Shown here: one piece after another, positions 1-49,740 of the stretch
Layout of the letters: each line of letters begins with the position of its first letter
How positions within the stretch are numbered: position 1 is the first letter of the stretch
DNA from: Thioalkalivibrio sp. ALJT
GTDB lineage: Bacteria; Pseudomonadota; Gammaproteobacteria; Ectothiorhodospirales; Ectothiorhodospiraceae
NCBI RefSeq assembly: GCF_000381825.1
Contig: NZ_KB907124.1
Location: 124,001 to 188,000 of the forward strand
Length of the DNA stretch: 64,000 nucleotides
Direction: 5' to 3'
Made by a program: the position numbers and the translations under genes
The notes under the pieces: generated by a model
Databases searched by the model: none
Seen by the model: the letters and a program-made list of their open reading frames with translations, nothing else
What the model was told of the DNA's origin: nothing

Positions 1-273
1 TCAAACTGGGAACTGTCTTCCGGCCGCGCCGCGGCGGTGGTCAGCATGTTCGAATTGGTCGGGGTTGATCCCGAAAACCTGGTGGCGCTCGGCTATGGCG
101 AGCATCGCCCCATCGCGAGCAACGAGACCGCCGAAGGACGCGCGGAGAATCGGCGGGTGTCGATCGTGGTCCTCCCGGGCCGGGCTCCGCGTGCGGAAGG
201 TCAGCAGGAGCCGGAGCGGCTGCGCGAGGACCTGGGGCCGGCCCCGCTTCCGCTGGATGGAGACACACCATGA
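1..273 (+). CDS. motD: Flagellar stator protein MotD/MotB, C-terminal fragment
   Basis: This is the 3' end of a gene that starts before the window; the reading frame is open from base 1. The visible part is the end of an OmpA-like peptidoglycan-binding domain, with LVALGYGEHRPIASN and the following GRAENRRVSIVV, which is the family signature. MotB-type proteins anchor the stator to the cell wall. The next genes (parA, parP, cheW, DUF2802) follow motC-motD in Pseudomonas chemotaxis clusters, so MotD is the likeliest name; a plain MotB cannot be excluded. The stop overlaps the parA start by 3 bases. The tail after the domain is short and Pro/Glu-rich. Confidence 0.85.
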   Translation, partial: SNWELSSGRAAAVVSMFELVGVDPENLVALGYGEHRPIASNETAEGRAENRRVSIVVLPGRAPRAEGQQEPERLREDLGPAPLPLDGDTP

Positions 274-1070
274 AGGTCTGGGCAGTCGCGAACCAGAAGG
301 GGGGGGTGGGCAAGACCACGACCACGGTGACCCTGGGCGGGTTGTTGTCCGGGCCCGAGCAGCGGGTACTGCTGGTGGACGTGGATCCGCACGGCTCGCT
401 GACTGCCTACTTCGGGCATGACCCGGAGACCGCCACGCGAGGCGTGTACGAACTTTTCAGCCAGTGTGCCGAGGGGGTCTCGCCCGATCCGACCGGCTTG
501 ATCCGCGAAAGCCGGTTTCCGGGGCTGGACCTGCTGACTGCCAGTACCGCGCTGGCTACGCTCGATCGGCAGCTTGGTACCCGCAGTGGCATGGGGCTGG
601 TGCTGCGCCAGGCCCTGGAAAAGGTGGCCGGTTGCTACGATTACGTGCTGCTGGACTGCCCGCCCATGCTGGGGGTGTTGATGGTGAATGCCCTGGCTGC
701 CTGTGACGAGTTGCTGATCCCGGTACAGACGGAGTTTCTTGCCCTGAAGGGGCTCGAGCGGATGATCAACACGCTCAAGATGGTGCAGAAATCGCGCAAG
801 GGCGAGCTGCGCTACCGGATCATCCCGACCCTGTTCGATCGCCGCACACGAGCGGCCCACGAGGCCCTGGCGGAGCTGCGGCGCCAGTATGGCGATGATG
901 TCTGGCCGGGCGTGATCCCGGTCGATACCAAGTTCCGTGATGCCTCGAGTGCGGGTCAGCCGCTTTGCTTCATGATCCCGGATGCACGTGGTGTGCTGGC
1001 GTATTCGGATTTGCTCGAGGCGATCGGCGGACACTTGTCGGACCCTCATGAACGGAGGCGGCGCGGATGA
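270..1070 (+). CDS. parC: ParA-family ATPase of the chemotaxis cluster (ParC type)
   Basis: 266-residue MinD/ParA ATPase. A deviant Walker A (KGGVGKTT) lies at residues 10-17, a DVDPHGS switch motif follows near residue 40 and LLDCPP (Walker B region) near 130. In polar flagellates the ParC ATPase positions chemotaxis arrays at the cell pole together with ParP and CheA. Here it overlaps both motD and parP by a few bases, so the three genes are translationally coupled. Being inside a chemotaxis cluster makes ParC more likely than a chromosome-segregation ParA or the flagellar-number regulator FlhG. No DNA-binding N-terminal extension is present. Confidence 0.85.
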   Translation: MKVWAVANQKGGVGKTTTTVTLGGLLSGPEQRVLLVDVDPHGSLTAYFGHDPETATRGVYELFSQCAEGVSPDPTGLIRESRFPGLDLLTASTALATLDRQLGTRSGMGLVLRQALEKVAGCYDYVLLDCPPMLGVLMVNALAACDELLIPVQTEFLALKGLERMINTLKMVQKSRKGELRYRIIPTLFDRRTRAAHEALAELRRQYGDDVWPGVIPVDTKFRDASSAGQPLCFMIPDARGVLAYSDLLEAIGGHLSDPHERRRRG

Positions 1071-1741
1071 GTCGTGCGAATCCGGACAACCTGGCACTGA
1101 AGGCAGAGCCCGAGGCGCTGGACGACTATTTTGGCAGCCTGCTCGACGAGCCGGCGCCGTCACGGCCGTTGCTGCCCCCGGATATCCTGGAGCCGCGCCC
1201 GACGGTCGTGGAGCCGGAACCGACCGCGATCGTGGAAGCGCCAGGGGGGGTGGCAGAGGCCGCCGCCGCTGCGGCCGAGCCGGCAGAGCGCGAGTACGCG
1301 CGTCCGGAGGCGCCGTTCTCGGTGCTGGTGTTCGAGGCGGGCAATCTGACCTTGCTGGCCCCACTGGACGCCCTGGGCGGCGTGGCGCCACTGGACAGCC
1401 TGGAGGTGCGGCCAACCCCGAATCATTCGGTCTGGTACCTTGGACTGGCGGATACCCGGGAGGGGCGGGTGCAGCTGATTGACCTTGCCGCCGTGGTAAC
1501 CCCGGAAGGCCGCGAATACGAGCCGGACACGGCGCATCAGGTCGTGTTCCTGGCGGGTTCGCGCTTTGCGCTGGCCTGCCATGCGATTCACGGTACCCGG
1601 GTGATCCAGCCGGAGGCGCTGCGCTGGCGCAAGAAGCGGCGGCGACTCCCGTGGCTGGCCGGGGTGGAACGCGAGCAGATGGCCACGCTACTGGATCTGG
1701 AGGCGCTGGACCGAACCCTGGACGAGGGCGCCTGGGAGTAG
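1067..1741 (+). CDS. parP: ParP-like protein with CheW-type C-terminal domain
   Basis: 224 residues. The first ~80 residues are an acidic, Pro/Ala-rich linker; the rest (about 85-215) resembles a divergent CheW domain (FSVLVFEAGNLTLLAPLDAL, later VQLIDLAAVV). This layout matches ParP, whose CheW-like AIF domain binds ParC and CheA and keeps signalling arrays at the pole. The start overlaps the parC stop (ATGA). It lies directly before the canonical cheW, the order known from Vibrio and Pseudomonas. The symbol rests on architecture and order; a generic CheW-domain protein is the fallback. Confidence 0.75.
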   Translation: MSRANPDNLALKAEPEALDDYFGSLLDEPAPSRPLLPPDILEPRPTVVEPEPTAIVEAPGGVAEAAAAAAEPAEREYARPEAPFSVLVFEAGNLTLLAPLDALGGVAPLDSLEVRPTPNHSVWYLGLADTREGRVQLIDLAAVVTPEGREYEPDTAHQVVFLAGSRFALACHAIHGTRVIQPEALRWRKKRRRLPWLAGVEREQMATLLDLEALDRTLDEGAWE

Positions 1742-44519: not shown

Positions 44520-44987
44520 ATGAAGCGATCCGCACGTCTGTTCACTGCCGCCTCCGTCGCGGCGACCCTCACGCTGGGTTTGGGTGCCACCAGCTCGGTC
44601 CAGGCCTTCGACGAGCACGAAGCCACTATCGACTACCGTCAGGGTGTGATGCGTGCCATTGGCGGCAACATGGGTTCGGTGGCGGCCGTTGTGATCGACG
44701 GGGCCGATTATGCCGGAAACCTGAAGATGCACACCCAGCAGCTGGTCGACCTGACCCATGACATCCCGTCCCTGTTTCCGGAGGGCAGTGACTTCCCCGA
44801 CACCGATGCCCGCGAGGCGATCTGGGACAACTGGGATCGTTATGTCGAGCTTTCCAGCGACAGTCGTGATGCGGCCAGGGCGTTGCATGCCGCGGTCGAG
44901 GCCGGGGACGAGTCCGAGTACATGATCCGGTTCCGCAACCTGGGGCAGTCCTGCCAGGCCTGCCACGATGACTTCCGCCGCGACTGA
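44520..44987 (+). CDS. Cytochrome c' / c-556 family protein
   Basis: 155 residues. ATG preceded by GGGAG. Signal peptide to about residue 28 (ending SVQAFD), then a four-helix-bundle cytochrome c' (IDYRQGVMRAIGGNMGSVAA) with the single heme motif CQACH near the C-terminus. These periplasmic proteins bind NO or transfer electrons and are frequent in sulfur and photosynthetic bacteria. The gene overlaps the following diheme cytochrome by 20 bases, so they are co-expressed. Confidence 0.92.
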   Translation: MKRSARLFTAASVAATLTLGLGATSSVQAFDEHEATIDYRQGVMRAIGGNMGSVAAVVIDGADYAGNLKMHTQQLVDLTHDIPSLFPEGSDFPDTDAREAIWDNWDRYVELSSDSRDAARALHAAVEAGDESEYMIRFRNLGQSCQACHDDFRRD

Positions 44988-45924
44988 ACCCGTGGCGGGG
45001 TCTCTTGTACCCGAGAGGCGGGCAGCCTGGTTGCCCGCCCTCTGTTTCCTGAGCCTTGGCGCGTTCACGTTCACCCCGGCTCAGGCCGAGATCGCGATTG
45101 GCGAGATCGATCCCGCAGCCAGTGAGGACGACCGGATCGCCTACGGTGAATACGTCTTGCGCGCCGCAGGTTGTGTCACCTGCCACACGGCCGAGGACGG
45201 CGAATTCCTGGCCGGAGGGCGACCGATCGAAAGCCCCTTCGGCGCGTTCTACGGGCCCAACATCACCCCCGACCCGGAATACGGCATCGGCACATGGTCA
45301 GAGGCCGACTTCAAACGTGCGCTGCAGGAAGGGCGCAGCCCGGATGGCCGGCACTACTATCCGGCATTCCCGTTCACTTCGTACACCAGGATGCGCGACG
45401 AGGACATCGAGGCGTTGTGGGCGTTTCTGCAATCCAATGTCGATCCCGTAGCCGAGGCGAATCGACCACACGAGCTCGACTGGTTCGCGCGTTTCCGTCC
45501 GGCCCTGATTGGGTGGAAATGGCTGCATTTCGAGCCCGGTCGCTTCGAATTTGACCCGAATCAGTCGGAACAATGGAACCGTGGTGCCTATCTGACCCAT
45601 GCCCTGGGCCATTGCATGGAATGCCACAGCCCGAGAACCCGCACCGGCGGCCTGGAACTGGAGCGGCTTGGTGCCGGTACACGACTGCCGGATGGCGACA
45701 TCGCTCCCAACATCACCCCGGACCGCGAGACCGGCATCGGCCGCTGGGGCGAGCGTCATATCGCGCGCTATCTGGAGATCGGAATTACTCGGGATGGCGA
45801 TTTCGCCGGTGGCAGCATGGCCGACGTGATCGATCACGGCACCTCGCACTTGACCCCCGAGGACCGCCAGGCCATCGCCAGCTACCTGCGCGCGCAGGAT
45901 CCGATCGGATACGAACCGGATTAA
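44968..45924 (+). CDS. Diheme cytochrome c (class I, tandem domains)
   Basis: 318 residues. Hydrophobic signal region at about 18-40 (ending TPAQAEI). Two cytochrome c domains with heme sites CVTCH (near residue 69) and CMECH (near 215); Met ligands are probably in the segments after each site. Both domains share the NITPD(P/R)E.GIG.W motif found in membrane-associated cytochrome c subunits of dehydrogenases and cytochrome-linked oxidoreductases. No catalytic subunit is adjacent, so the partner is unknown; the cytochrome c' before it is the obvious candidate. Confidence 0.9.
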   Translation: MTSAATEPVAGSLVPERRAAWLPALCFLSLGAFTFTPAQAEIAIGEIDPAASEDDRIAYGEYVLRAAGCVTCHTAEDGEFLAGGRPIESPFGAFYGPNITPDPEYGIGTWSEADFKRALQEGRSPDGRHYYPAFPFTSYTRMRDEDIEALWAFLQSNVDPVAEANRPHELDWFARFRPALIGWKWLHFEPGRFEFDPNQSEQWNRGAYLTHALGHCMECHSPRTRTGGLELERLGAGTRLPDGDIAPNITPDRETGIGRWGERHIARYLEIGITRDGDFAGGSMADVIDHGTSHLTPEDRQAIASYLRAQDPIGYEPD

Positions 45925-46586: not shown

Positions 46587-48665
46587 ATGCGTCTGGGATT
46601 CAGCGCGGTCGTCCAGCTGTTGTTCGTCGCCATGATGATCATCACCGTTACGCTTGTTGCGGCCACCGGCTACAGCCTGGCGCGCTCAGGCGTCGTCGAT
46701 GCCGGCACCCGGGTGATCGACGGGGCGATGGAGAGGACCCGTGACCGCTTCGTCGAGCGTTACACCGAGACCGGCGATCGTCTCGCGCTCCTGGCCTCGG
46801 GGCTGAAGGGCCTGGATGCGCTGGAACAACGTGACTCCGTGTTCCGCAGTCTCTGGGAGCTGGCGCAACAGTCCGAACTGCACCAGTCAAGCTTCATGGC
46901 TGGCCCGGATGACCTCTTGCTGGAGGCACGCAGCCTCCCCAATCCTGCGACCCGTTTCGTGCCCCCCAACAACGGGGACGCGCTGGAGGAGTGGATCTAT
47001 CGGGACGACGACTTCAGCGTCATGACTCGCCTGACCAAACCACGGACGGCATCCCAACAGGATGCCAAGGCGTTTGACAAGGGCGCCGCGCCCGAGGACA
47101 CCCGCTTCAGCGAGGTGCATCCGCTCAGTCTGACCGGGGCACCCGGCATCACGGTCTCCCGGCCCGTTCAGGATGCGGAGGGGGCGGTGAACGGGGTCGT
47201 TGGCATCGAGATTCCACTCGCCCGGCTGGAGGCACTATTGCGTGCCGGCAAGCTTGGCGAGGAATCCATGCTGATGATCATCTCGGATGACAACAAGGTT
47301 GTGGCGCACCACCTCGGGCCCAGGCCGGGCCGGGACGCACCACCCCCCGGTGAATTACTCGAGGTTGCGGACCTGCGCCAGCAATGGATCGCAGACGCCT
47401 GGATGCAGTTGCGCGCGAAGGCGAAGGCGCAGGGCGATCCCGAAGTCACACTGCTCGATCTGGAACCGGGTAACTACTTTGTGCAGAAGAAGCGACTCAC
47501 CGAGCACCTCGATCATGACTGGCATCTGTTCTTGATGGTGCCGGATCATGCGGTGCTGGCCGGCGTGAACCGCGGCCTTCATACCTCGGTGACCCTGGCC
47601 ACGATCATGATGATCGTGGCCGCCTATGCAATCTTTTTGACCGCCAGCAAGCTTACGCGACCACTGCGCCAGATGGTCGATAACGCCCGACTGCTCGAGC
47701 AGTTGCGCTTCGGTGAACTCAGACCTGTCCAGGGCGAGTTCAGCGAGTTCAATGCCCTCGACCGCTCCCTGCGCCAGATGGCGTCCAGCCTGATGGCCTT
47801 CAATCGGTACGTCCCGACTGCCCTGCTGCGACGTCTGCTTTCGGAGAAACACGAGGCCACGCTCGGGGCCGAATGCCGGTCACTGGTTCTCATGAACACC
47901 GGGATCAACGAGTTCAACACGACGGCTGCGGAGATGGAGACCCAGGAGGAGGCAGAGTACCTGACGCGTTATCAGCGCGAGATCTTCGAGGCCGTGCATC
48001 GCAACGGCGGTGCCATCGACAAGTTCATCGATGACCGGATCATCGTGTTCTGGGGGGCTCCGGATGCGGCCGAAAACGATACCTATCACGCCTGCACGGC
48101 GGCCCTCGAATGCCAGGCCGCGACCCACCAGCTCAGTCAGGCACTGCGCTGGGAAAACCATCCGGCGATTACGCTGCGCGTGGGCCTGCACCGCGATGTC
48201 TGCATGGTCGGGAATTTCGGCTCCGAAGACCGCATGTTCTACTCGGTCGTTGGCGGCGCGGTATCGGTCAACAACTGGCTGGGCAACCTGAATCGGCGCT
48301 ACGGCACGACCATACTGGCCAGCGAGGCCATCCGCAGTGAAACCACCGGCGACTTCGTATGGCGCTGGATCGATCGGGTCGAAGTCTTCGACGGATGGAA
48401 CCCCTCCGACGGGGAGGCCCACTCGGACAGGGGCGAGCCCTTCGATATCTACGAACTACGCGGGCATGCCGCCGACCCGGGACTCGCCCAACAACGCGAC
48501 TATGTCGCGCGCTACGAGGCCGCGCTCGCCCTGCGGGTCAACGAGAAGGACCTCGAACGGGCGCTGGAACGTTTCTACGCACTGCATGAGCAATTCCCGG
48601 GCGATGACGCCGTGGCCTGGCAGGTCAAGGTCATTCGCGCAATGCTTGAGGACGACAAGGTATGA
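46587..48665 (+). CDS. Membrane sensor with degenerate class III cyclase domain
   Basis: 692 residues from the ATG at 46587, preceded by GGGAG. Membrane helix at 4-28, a Cache-like periplasmic domain of about 300 residues, second helix at about 332-355, HAMP-like segment (about 355-405), cyclase-like domain (about 415-615) and a helical tail. The cyclase fold is clear (GGAIDKFIDD, GNFGSEDRMFYS), but key positions are changed: the first metal Asp is Gly439 (TGINEF for ADIRGF), the transition-state Asn is Ser560 and the Arg is Trp564 (GGAVSVNNWL for GDAVNLAARL); Lys479 and Asp483 remain. It is predicted to be catalytically inactive or altered. Its stop overlaps the next gene. Confidence 0.85.
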   Translation: MRLGFSAVVQLLFVAMMIITVTLVAATGYSLARSGVVDAGTRVIDGAMERTRDRFVERYTETGDRLALLASGLKGLDALEQRDSVFRSLWELAQQSELHQSSFMAGPDDLLLEARSLPNPATRFVPPNNGDALEEWIYRDDDFSVMTRLTKPRTASQQDAKAFDKGAAPEDTRFSEVHPLSLTGAPGITVSRPVQDAEGAVNGVVGIEIPLARLEALLRAGKLGEESMLMIISDDNKVVAHHLGPRPGRDAPPPGELLEVADLRQQWIADAWMQLRAKAKAQGDPEVTLLDLEPGNYFVQKKRLTEHLDHDWHLFLMVPDHAVLAGVNRGLHTSVTLATIMMIVAAYAIFLTASKLTRPLRQMVDNARLLEQLRFGELRPVQGEFSEFNALDRSLRQMASSLMAFNRYVPTALLRRLLSEKHEATLGAECRSLVLMNTGINEFNTTAAEMETQEEAEYLTRYQREIFEAVHRNGGAIDKFIDDRIIVFWGAPDAAENDTYHACTAALECQAATHQLSQALRWENHPAITLRVGLHRDVCMVGNFGSEDRMFYSVVGGAVSVNNWLGNLNRRYGTTILASEAIRSETTGDFVWRWIDRVEVFDGWNPSDGEAHSDRGEPFDIYELRGHAADPGLAQQRDYVARYEAALALRVNEKDLERALERFYALHEQFPGDDAVAWQVKVIRAMLEDDKV

Positions 48666-49210
48666 GTTATTTCGACCAGGACAAGATGGTCGAGACGGCG
48701 CTTGAGCGCTTCGATCGTATTCACGCCATGCATCTCCAGGGATCGGCGGCCCTGGCACAACGCCTGAACTTCCTCTACCGGGTAACGTTCCTCGGTCTGG
48801 CGCTGCTGCTGGCGGCCCTGTTCGCGCTGGTGATTGTGGTCTCGGCCCAGATGAACAATATGAATCGCGTGATCTCGGCCGTTAACAACCACATGGGGGA
48901 GATCAACCAGGATATGAACCGGATGCTCGCGACGGTCTCGCGTCTGGATTCCAATATGGAGGGCATGTCCGGCGTCGTGCTCCACATGGATAAGATCAAC
49001 CACAGCGTCGACACCATCTCGATGGACATGTTCGAGATCAACCGCCACGTCGCGCTTCTGGACCGTGATGTCGAGCAAATGTCAACCCATATCGGGGACA
49101 TGCAGCAGTCGTTCCGCGCCGTCGACGGCAATATGGGGCTTCTGGCCGATGATATGCAGCGCATGTCGCAGCCGATGCGGATGTTCAACCAGTTCAATCC
49201 CTTCTGGTAA
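48662..49210 (+). CDS. Membrane-anchored Met-rich coiled-coil protein 1
   Basis: 182 residues of no family I recognise. A cytoplasmic N-terminal helix (about 1-35), one membrane helix (about 38-63, LGLALLLAALFALVIVVSA), then about 110 residues of uninterrupted helix rich in Met, Asn and Asp with hydrophobic spacing typical of a coiled coil (NNHMGEINQDMNRM, MDMFEINRHVALLDRDVEQM). It ends with an aromatic/Asn tail (MFNQFNPFW). The ATG overlaps the stop of the pseudo-cyclase gene, so they are coupled. Paralogous to the next gene in its C-terminal part. Confidence 0.8.
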   Translation: MSYFDQDKMVETALERFDRIHAMHLQGSAALAQRLNFLYRVTFLGLALLLAALFALVIVVSAQMNNMNRVISAVNNHMGEINQDMNRMLATVSRLDSNMEGMSGVVLHMDKINHSVDTISMDMFEINRHVALLDRDVEQMSTHIGDMQQSFRAVDGNMGLLADDMQRMSQPMRMFNQFNPFW

Positions 49211-49215
49211 CGCCG

Positions 49216-49740
49216 ATGATCGGTTCCAGCAAACACCTCGACAAGATTGTCCGGCACCTGGAGCACGTCGAGGACGATATCCGGCAGACTCAGCTGGAGC
49301 ATGCGGCTCACGAGCGTCGCACCGACCGCTTCATGCAGATCACGGTGGCATCACTCGCGGCGGTTGCGCTTTTGAATCTCTACTTCGTCGGCGAACTGGC
49401 CCATGAAATCGGGGTTCTGGTCCGAAACATGGACCGCACCCTGGTGCATCTTGAGGAGATAGAGGATCGCATGACGGGGATGGAGCTGCACTTTCAGCAG
49501 GTCGGGGAGAATGCTGGCAGGCTCCCGATCGTCGTGGACCAGATGACCTCCATTAGCGCCCGGATGCAGGAGATCGAACGGGACCTTGGCGGCGTCTCCG
49601 GGCACATGCACCAGATGAGCAGCCACGTGGCAGAAATGGACAGGAACGTCAGATTCATGACCCACTCGTTCCGGAATGTCAATGGTAAGCTCGTTCACAT
49701 CCGGCATAATGTCCGGGAGATGTCACGCGTCGTTCCTTGA
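49216..49740 (+). CDS. Membrane-anchored coiled-coil protein 2
   Basis: 174 residues, 5 bases after its paralogue. Charged N-terminal helix (about 1-37, HLDKIVRHLEHVEDDIRQ), a membrane helix (about 39-60), then a coiled-coil region to the C-terminus. The ends of both proteins share M-x2-SFR-x-V-x-G followed about 12-14 residues later by MS (DMQQSFRAVDGN against FMTHSFRNVNGK). Same layout and coupling suggest hetero-oligomers working with the upstream sensor. Function unknown. Confidence 0.8.
   Translation: MIGSSKHLDKIVRHLEHVEDDIRQTQLEHAAHERRTDRFMQITVASLAAVALLNLYFVGELAHEIGVLVRNMDRTLVHLEEIEDRMTGMELHFQQVGENAGRLPIVVDQMTSISARMQEIERDLGGVSGHMHQMSSHVAEMDRNVRFMTHSFRNVNGKLVHIRHNVREMSRVVP

Follow-up and report, generated by a model that had tools for sequence, protein, structure and literature searches.

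The window analysed here is a stretch of 64,000 nucleotides from Thioalkalivibrio sp. ALJT (contig NZ_KB907124.1, positions 124,001 to 188,000; genome size 2.66 Mb), and the subject is a free-standing unit of three genes on its forward strand, referred to below as the triple. Gene 1 encodes a receptor with a periplasmic double-Cache (dCache) domain and a class III cyclase-like domain that lacks its active site, while genes 2 and 3 encode two membrane-anchored coiled-coil proteins (the rods), each with a single transmembrane (TM) helix:

46587..48665, + strand: gene 1, 692-aa dCache receptor with a degenerate class III cyclase-like domain
48662..49210, + strand: gene 2, 182-aa single-TM coiled-coil protein with a Met core, C-terminal end MSQPMRMFNQFNPFW
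49216..49740, + strand: gene 3, 174-aa single-TM coiled-coil paralogue with a Met core, C-terminal end VNGKLVHIRHNVREMSRVVP

Genes 1 and 2 overlap by 4 bases (48662-48665) and genes 2 and 3 are separated by 5 bases (49211-49215), as was already noted in an earlier reading of this DNA (hereafter the original prediction), whose coordinates were correct; the triple is contiguous in 7 genomes. The start of gene 1 at the ATG at 46587 is supported by its orthologues, which begin at the matching residue.

The receptor and its cyclase-like domain

Within gene 1, the following parts can be distinguished (TM helix boundaries, taken from the hydrophobic stretch and the orthologue alignment, are approximate):

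46605..46670, + strand: TM helix 1, ~residues 7-28
46674..47591, + strand: periplasmic dCache domain, ~residues 30-335, by Pfam dCache_1 and by sequence and fold matches to chemoreceptor dCache domains in the PDB
47661..47876, + strand: HAMP-like linker, ~residues 359-430, together with the cyclase-like domain the most conserved region
47877..48422, + strand: class III cyclase-like domain, ~residues 431-612, with Lys479 and Asp483 kept and four other key residues gone
47901..47903, + strand: Gly439 codon, replacing the first metal Asp (by alignment)
48264..48266, + strand: Ser560 codon, replacing the transition-state Asn (by alignment)
48276..48278, + strand: Trp564 codon, replacing the transition-state Arg (by alignment); the Trp is invariant across triples

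The periplasmic part is that of a dCache receptor, i.e. a double-Cache domain between two TM helices. Pfam dCache_1 matches the window protein at E 2e-8, which is below the cut-off, and the Thiorhodospira orthologue above the cut-off, and in a fold search the predicted model of gene 1 matches chemoreceptor dCache structures. Of the Cache-HAMP-like sensor in the original prediction, the Cache domain is thereby borne out and the HAMP domain is not: Pfam finds no HAMP in gene 1, and because the linker resembles it by eye only, no more than the term HAMP-like is warranted.

The Pfam match to a cyclase is weak in the window protein, and the homology of this part of gene 1 is given by PDB profile matches, at E 1e-25 to 1e-21, to adenylate cyclases including CyaB. 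About 40 homologous class III cyclases were aligned with gene 1 to judge its active-site residues, and the alignment confirmed that Gly439, Ser560 and Trp564 stand in place of catalytic residues, with Phe551 at the position of the adenine-binding Asp. The homology to active class III cyclases is present, but of their two metal-binding Asp residues only the second (Asp483) remains, and the transition-state Asn and Arg are missing. The first metal Asp is also replaced in Thiorhodospira, and the Asn is absent from the first transition-state site in all triples, whereas Lys479 and Asp483 lie within a motif (IDKFIDD) that is invariant across them. Within the alignment only the triple-linked proteins miss the whole set (first metal Asp, Asn, Arg and adenine-binding Asp), while the other homologues that cover the active sites have the usual catalytic pattern, save scattered single changes. 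The closest full-length homologue, a Cache-type class III adenylate cyclase of 701 aa (L117), has the same domain order and the same C-terminal helical tail and scores 412 bits over the full length; its active site is intact and no rod pair adjoins it, whereas the active site is destroyed in all triple-linked members.

Judged from these residues, the cyclase-like domain can probably no longer make cyclic AMP (cAMP) or cyclic GMP. It has nevertheless been retained, as the original prediction held: the ratio of nonsynonymous to synonymous substitution rates is 0.06-0.18 for the cyclase-like domain and 0.02-0.09 for the linker, compared to 0.21-0.28 for the Cache domain, and the low value in the cyclase-like domain points to a selected pseudoenzyme rather than a decaying relic.

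Full-length gene 1 was found in 7 of the 47 genomes of the order (six Thioalkalivibrio and one Thiorhodospira, sulfur oxidisers of soda lakes), and in all of these 7 it is joined by genes 2 and 3, adjacent to it and in unchanged order. This co-occurrence is clean, because the next-best relative of gene 1 in the order scores only 146 bits, compared to more than 1100 for members of triples. Records of the triple come from Thioalkalivibrio metagenome-assembled genomes (MAGs) and Thiorhodospira sibirica, and a further MAG (L083, labelled Gammaproteobacteria) has genes 1 and 2. Identity to the window proteins ranges from 70-81% down to 41-43%, and the triple is under purifying selection.

Outside the order, a genome of another gammaproteobacterial family (G186) encodes a dCache protein of 376 aa that has two TM helices but neither linker nor cyclase domain and aligns to gene 1 positions 12-351 (143 bits); gene 2 starts 3 bp later, followed by gene 3. 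In a tree of Cache domains L117, with its intact active site, groups with the G186 receptor and the receptors of the triples (support 97/95), without a resolved order inside the group. Receptors linked to a rod pair have lost cyclase chemistry by two different routes, while L117, which does not adjoin a pair, retains it. A flavocytochrome c sulfide dehydrogenase flavoprotein is encoded downstream of the G186 triple, in the same orientation; directly downstream is a gene for a 3211-aa secreted-looking protein (L241:5194-14829), followed by DUF1501 and sulfide dehydrogenase genes.

The rod pair

The main parts of the rods are:

48782..48847, + strand: gene 2 TM helix, ~residues 41-62, N-terminus cytoplasmic by the positive-inside rule
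48848..49192, + strand: gene 2 periplasmic coiled coil, ~residues 63-177
49390..49725, + strand: gene 3 periplasmic coiled coil, ~residues 59-170

Each rod has a helix at its cytoplasmic N-terminus, crosses the membrane once by a TM helix (charge bias N-in) and continues as an unbroken coiled coil. By hhalign the two proteins are distant paralogues (probability 99.9%, E 1e-34), and neither matches a Pfam or NCBIfam family above threshold, in agreement with the two paralogous, Met-rich coiled-coil proteins of no known family that had been described. DUF948 (PF06103), which likewise combines a single TM helix with a coiled coil, reaches 26.8 bits against a cut-off of 37.2 and is one of many coiled-coil matches, so that by score the rods are not members. 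The hydrophobic period of the rods is 3.45-3.5, which was reached by none of 500 shuffled sequences, and Met makes up 36-46% of the residues at heptad positions a and d, compared to 0-4% at other positions. AlphaFold2 predicts gene 2 as a single helix (residues 3-177) with a mean predicted local distance difference test score (pLDDT) of 81, and a fold search with this model returned no match.

The periplasmic length of the rods is nearly constant, although many members share only ~20% identity: 123.6 +/- 2.4 aa for the gene 2 type (n=34) and 122.7 +/- 5.6 aa for the gene 3 type (n=32), both sets containing near-identical relatives, which makes the counts non-independent. With a rise of 0.15 nm per residue, this would correspond to a rod of ~18 nm, which is near the width of the periplasm and should be enough to cross it. 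The C-terminal end of the rods is conserved (with the consensus MSxPMRxFNxxxPF in the gene 2 type), and this tip probably meets the outer membrane, the peptidoglycan or an outer-membrane partner.

Distribution and genomic neighbours of the rods

Tandem rod pairs without gene 1 are present in roughly a dozen lineages of Gammaproteobacteria and in about 15 genomes of another class, from which the strong rod matches in a 400-genome sample of the phylum come, and which we take to be, probably, the Magnetococcales. The gene 2 type came first and the gene 3 type second in every pair looked at. The original prediction had the cyclase gene define the system, and had named in advance the occurrence of rod homologues mainly without it as evidence to the contrary. 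The neighbourhood search that it proposed did recover the linkage to the pseudo-cyclase in 7 of the 47 genomes of the order, but elsewhere the pair is mostly found without gene 1, and in G186 the receptor itself is without the cyclase domain, so that this part of the prediction is not supported. The rod pair makes up a so far undescribed family that occurs mainly in sulfur-storing bacteria, and forms the ancient core of the system; it is the wider discovery, and the cyclase gene is a lineage-specific partner.

The order RND-gene 2-gene 3, in which the first gene encodes a resistance-nodulation-division (RND) transporter, was found at 11 of the 15 pair loci of the second class. Several of these loci have genes for an outer-membrane efflux protein (TolC-like) and a membrane fusion protein (MFP) upstream, and the genes often overlap. 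The pair thus takes the place of the fourth and fifth gene in a tripartite efflux operon (outer membrane factor, MFP and RND), whereas the window triple stands alone. Tripartite efflux systems are not known to include two coiled-coil subunits of this kind. A gene of the same RND subfamily (57-70% identity) directly precedes the pair in G276, a further gammaproteobacterium, and the triple in Thiorhodospira. In the window genus the RND gene was rejected as a co-inherited partner, its orthologue being universal in the family and hence non-discriminating.

Second-messenger domains also occur next to the pair. EAL proteins are encoded directly 3' of it in G080, G501 and G431/G528 (L160:9295-10074, L211:9547-10389, L217:9835-10656 and L222:5026-5847), and these look degenerate when their motifs are compared by eye with the canonical ones, AEGVE having become A(V/I)GVE and DDFGT having become TDGAP, DNFSW or DNCSL. 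At other loci the pair is directly followed by a fusion of a cyclic nucleotide-binding domain with a sodium:sulfate symporter-type protein (L210:9349-11226, L219:9472-11427 and L213 from 4950 onward). Association with second-messenger domains that may have a binding but no catalytic function is therefore a recurrent feature of the pair.

With respect to sulfur, PF17228 sulfur-globule protein (SGP) genes are present in 15 of at most 25 gammaproteobacterial genomes with the rod family, compared to 22 of about 231 genomes (Fisher test, 1.8e-8), where the exact make-up of the second genome sample was inferred; with all 32 rod genomes counted, the value is still 1.7e-6. In the window genome, a single-rod relative clusters with genes for an RND transporter, PF17228, a ParA/MinD ATPase, a dynamin-like GTPase and DsrE2 (L068 = G000:C2:62000-81000). 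This cluster is conserved in other Thioalkalivibrio (L069, L072 and L076), and in G416 of the second class (L226) a single rod clusters with SGP, ParA and a matching RND (66% identity), which suggests ParA- and dynamin-assisted handling of sulfur globules. The substrate of the rod system may likewise be sulfur. The known protein SgpD, which is periplasmic and possibly coiled-coil, is encoded beside a hydrophobe/amphiphile exporter, and reportedly is proline-patterned, has a cleavable signal peptide and is almost restricted to Chromatiaceae (PMC10386293); it was compared with the rods, whose single relatives sit in RND-SGP-ParA clusters, by description only. A literature search on the rod family in Thioalkalivibrio or Magnetococcus, or on sulfur globules together with ParA and RND, returned nothing specific. 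Another single-rod gene has small c-type cytochrome genes on one side and the gene for a flavocytochrome c sulfide dehydrogenase flavoprotein on the other (L075:7845-10049), and further rod relatives adjoin FecR, OmpA and outer-membrane genes.

The immediate surroundings of the window triple consist of a cytochrome c'/dihaem cytochrome c pair ~660 bp upstream (44520-45924) and a tRNA-Asn gene downstream on the opposite strand. A similar cytochrome pair adjoins a single-rod relative in G015 (L073:5866-7947), but as a conserved flanking partner of the triple it was rejected, the flanks being different in other genomes with the triple. In several Thioalkalivibrio, a 616-aa membrane protein without Pfam match (L065:4546-6396) is encoded upstream of the triple and adjoins a thioredoxin-like protein. 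Further away in the window (270-1741), a gene for a ParA/MinD-type ATPase and the next gene adjoin a CheW-like gene, perhaps as a chemotaxis-array positioning system. A phage or viral origin of the triple was rejected, as relatives are absent from viral contigs and PHROG matches are weak and due to chance.

Interpretation and rival explanations

On balance, it seems moderately probable that the unit is a signal-coupled envelope module, in which RND-linked, periplasm-spanning rods of sulfur-storing bacteria are combined with a dCache pseudo-cyclase receptor, rather than a second-messenger synthase. The products of genes 2 and 3 would be matched rods that span the periplasm as a heteromer and often serve as an accessory of an AcrB-type RND transporter, and in Thioalkalivibrio and Thiorhodospira this ancestral pair would have become wired to a dCache receptor. 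Binding of a periplasmic ligand by the dCache domain would change the conformation of the receptor and, via contact in the membrane or periplasm, that of the rod assembly and hence of the transporter or envelope structure it serves, with the cytoplasmic pseudo-cyclase as a platform for dimerisation, nucleotide binding or docking. The original prediction likewise had a sensor in the periplasm linked to a membrane-bound coiled-coil assembly in the cell envelope, and this view is supported here. For the positioning role suggested alongside it, nothing was found at the triple, the recurrent neighbours of the pair being RND genes, sulfur metabolism and degenerate or ligand-binding second-messenger domains.

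Several observations weigh against such a module. The triple is not adjacent to an RND gene in the window genome or in other Thioalkalivibrio, where the RND orthologue lies elsewhere and occurs in the family with or without the triple, and many gammaproteobacterial pairs have no RND neighbour; the RND partnership of the rods in the window organism is therefore suggested by homology. The sulfur-globule statistic ignores phylogeny, and the sulfur-globule genes may only mark sulfur oxidisers. Lastly, of the two single-protein structure predictions, that of gene 2 gave the helix described above, whereas that of gene 1 is of low confidence (mean pLDDT 56) and does not resolve the cyclase-like half.

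The rods could also be passive spacers that tether the inner membrane to the cell wall or outer membrane, with the receptor merely anchoring or clustering them. Their constant periplasmic length, continuous coiled coil and conserved C-terminal tip agree with this, as do the FecR, OmpA and outer-membrane genes beside rod relatives, but the coupling to a dCache receptor here, and to EAL or cyclic nucleotide-binding proteins and RND elsewhere, suggests regulation or transport, and a purely structural scaffold seems rather doubtful. Alternatively, gene 1 might be a dominant-negative or allosteric partner that shuts off an intact class III cyclase by forming a heterodimer, and thereby regulates cAMP, with the coiled coils as passengers or stabilisers. 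A class III site takes Asp, Asp and Lys from one chain and Asn and Arg from the partner, so that neither site of a heterodimer would work if one chain had lost both sets; moreover, no part of gene 1 is more conserved than the linker and cyclase-like domain, and a further class III cyclase homologue is present in the genome (G000:C3:198155). That homologue, however, differs in architecture and is only weakly similar (E 2.6e-13), and the perfect linkage of gene 1 is to the coiled-coil pair, which in G186 is kept together with a receptor without the cyclase domain, making this explanation unlikely. It is very unlikely that the domain catalyses some other nucleotide reaction with the Asp483 and Lys479 that it has kept: the invariance of IDKFIDD and the strong purifying selection would fit, but three essential residues and the adenine-binding Asp are lost, and again the domain is absent in G186. 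The PADLOC model for PycC matches gene 1 (E 1e-20), which would allow a Pycsar-like antiphage cyclase with membrane effectors; this match, however, is explained by the fold that class III cyclases share, PADLOC finds nothing for genes 2 and 3, and the triple is stably conserved in two genera, with the cyclase domain missing from the G186 receptor. Given that PycC is an active pyrimidine cyclase encoded beside an effector that senses cyclic nucleotides, the Pycsar identity was rejected on the loss of the active site, and its probability is negligible.

A more specific version of the envelope module would have the rods form a Met-lined coiled-coil conduit or shuttle across the periplasm, which helps an RND transporter to deal with hydrophobic sulfur (polysulfide or S8) or with components of the globules and is gated by dead second-messenger domains (the pseudo-cyclase here, a pseudo-EAL elsewhere). 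The rods would then be the split, free-standing counterpart of the Met-lined periplasmic coiled-coil tube of the RND transporters MmpL4 and MmpL5, which is an antiparallel hairpin within the RND protein itself (PMC12501195). The likeness extends to the RND context, the long periplasmic coiled coil, the Met-rich core and the conserved tip, and a profile of gene 2 hits the coiled coil of MmpL5 at E 8.6e-6. Other coiled coils match better, however, and the match is likely compositional convergence; the coil is inside the transporter in MmpL5, compared to two separate membrane-anchored proteins here, and the rods are hydrophobic at positions a and d only, which is typical of small bundles more than of wide barrels. 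A conduit is considered quite improbable.

For the signal-coupled module as a whole, the pseudo-cyclase receptor is a clear natural example of selection preserving a signalling enzyme whose chemistry was lost, with a related lineage that lacks the domain entirely, and the widespread, length-constrained rod pair, being tied to RND and sulfur-globule genes, offers concrete candidates for the periplasmic management of hydrophobic sulfur or globule proteins.

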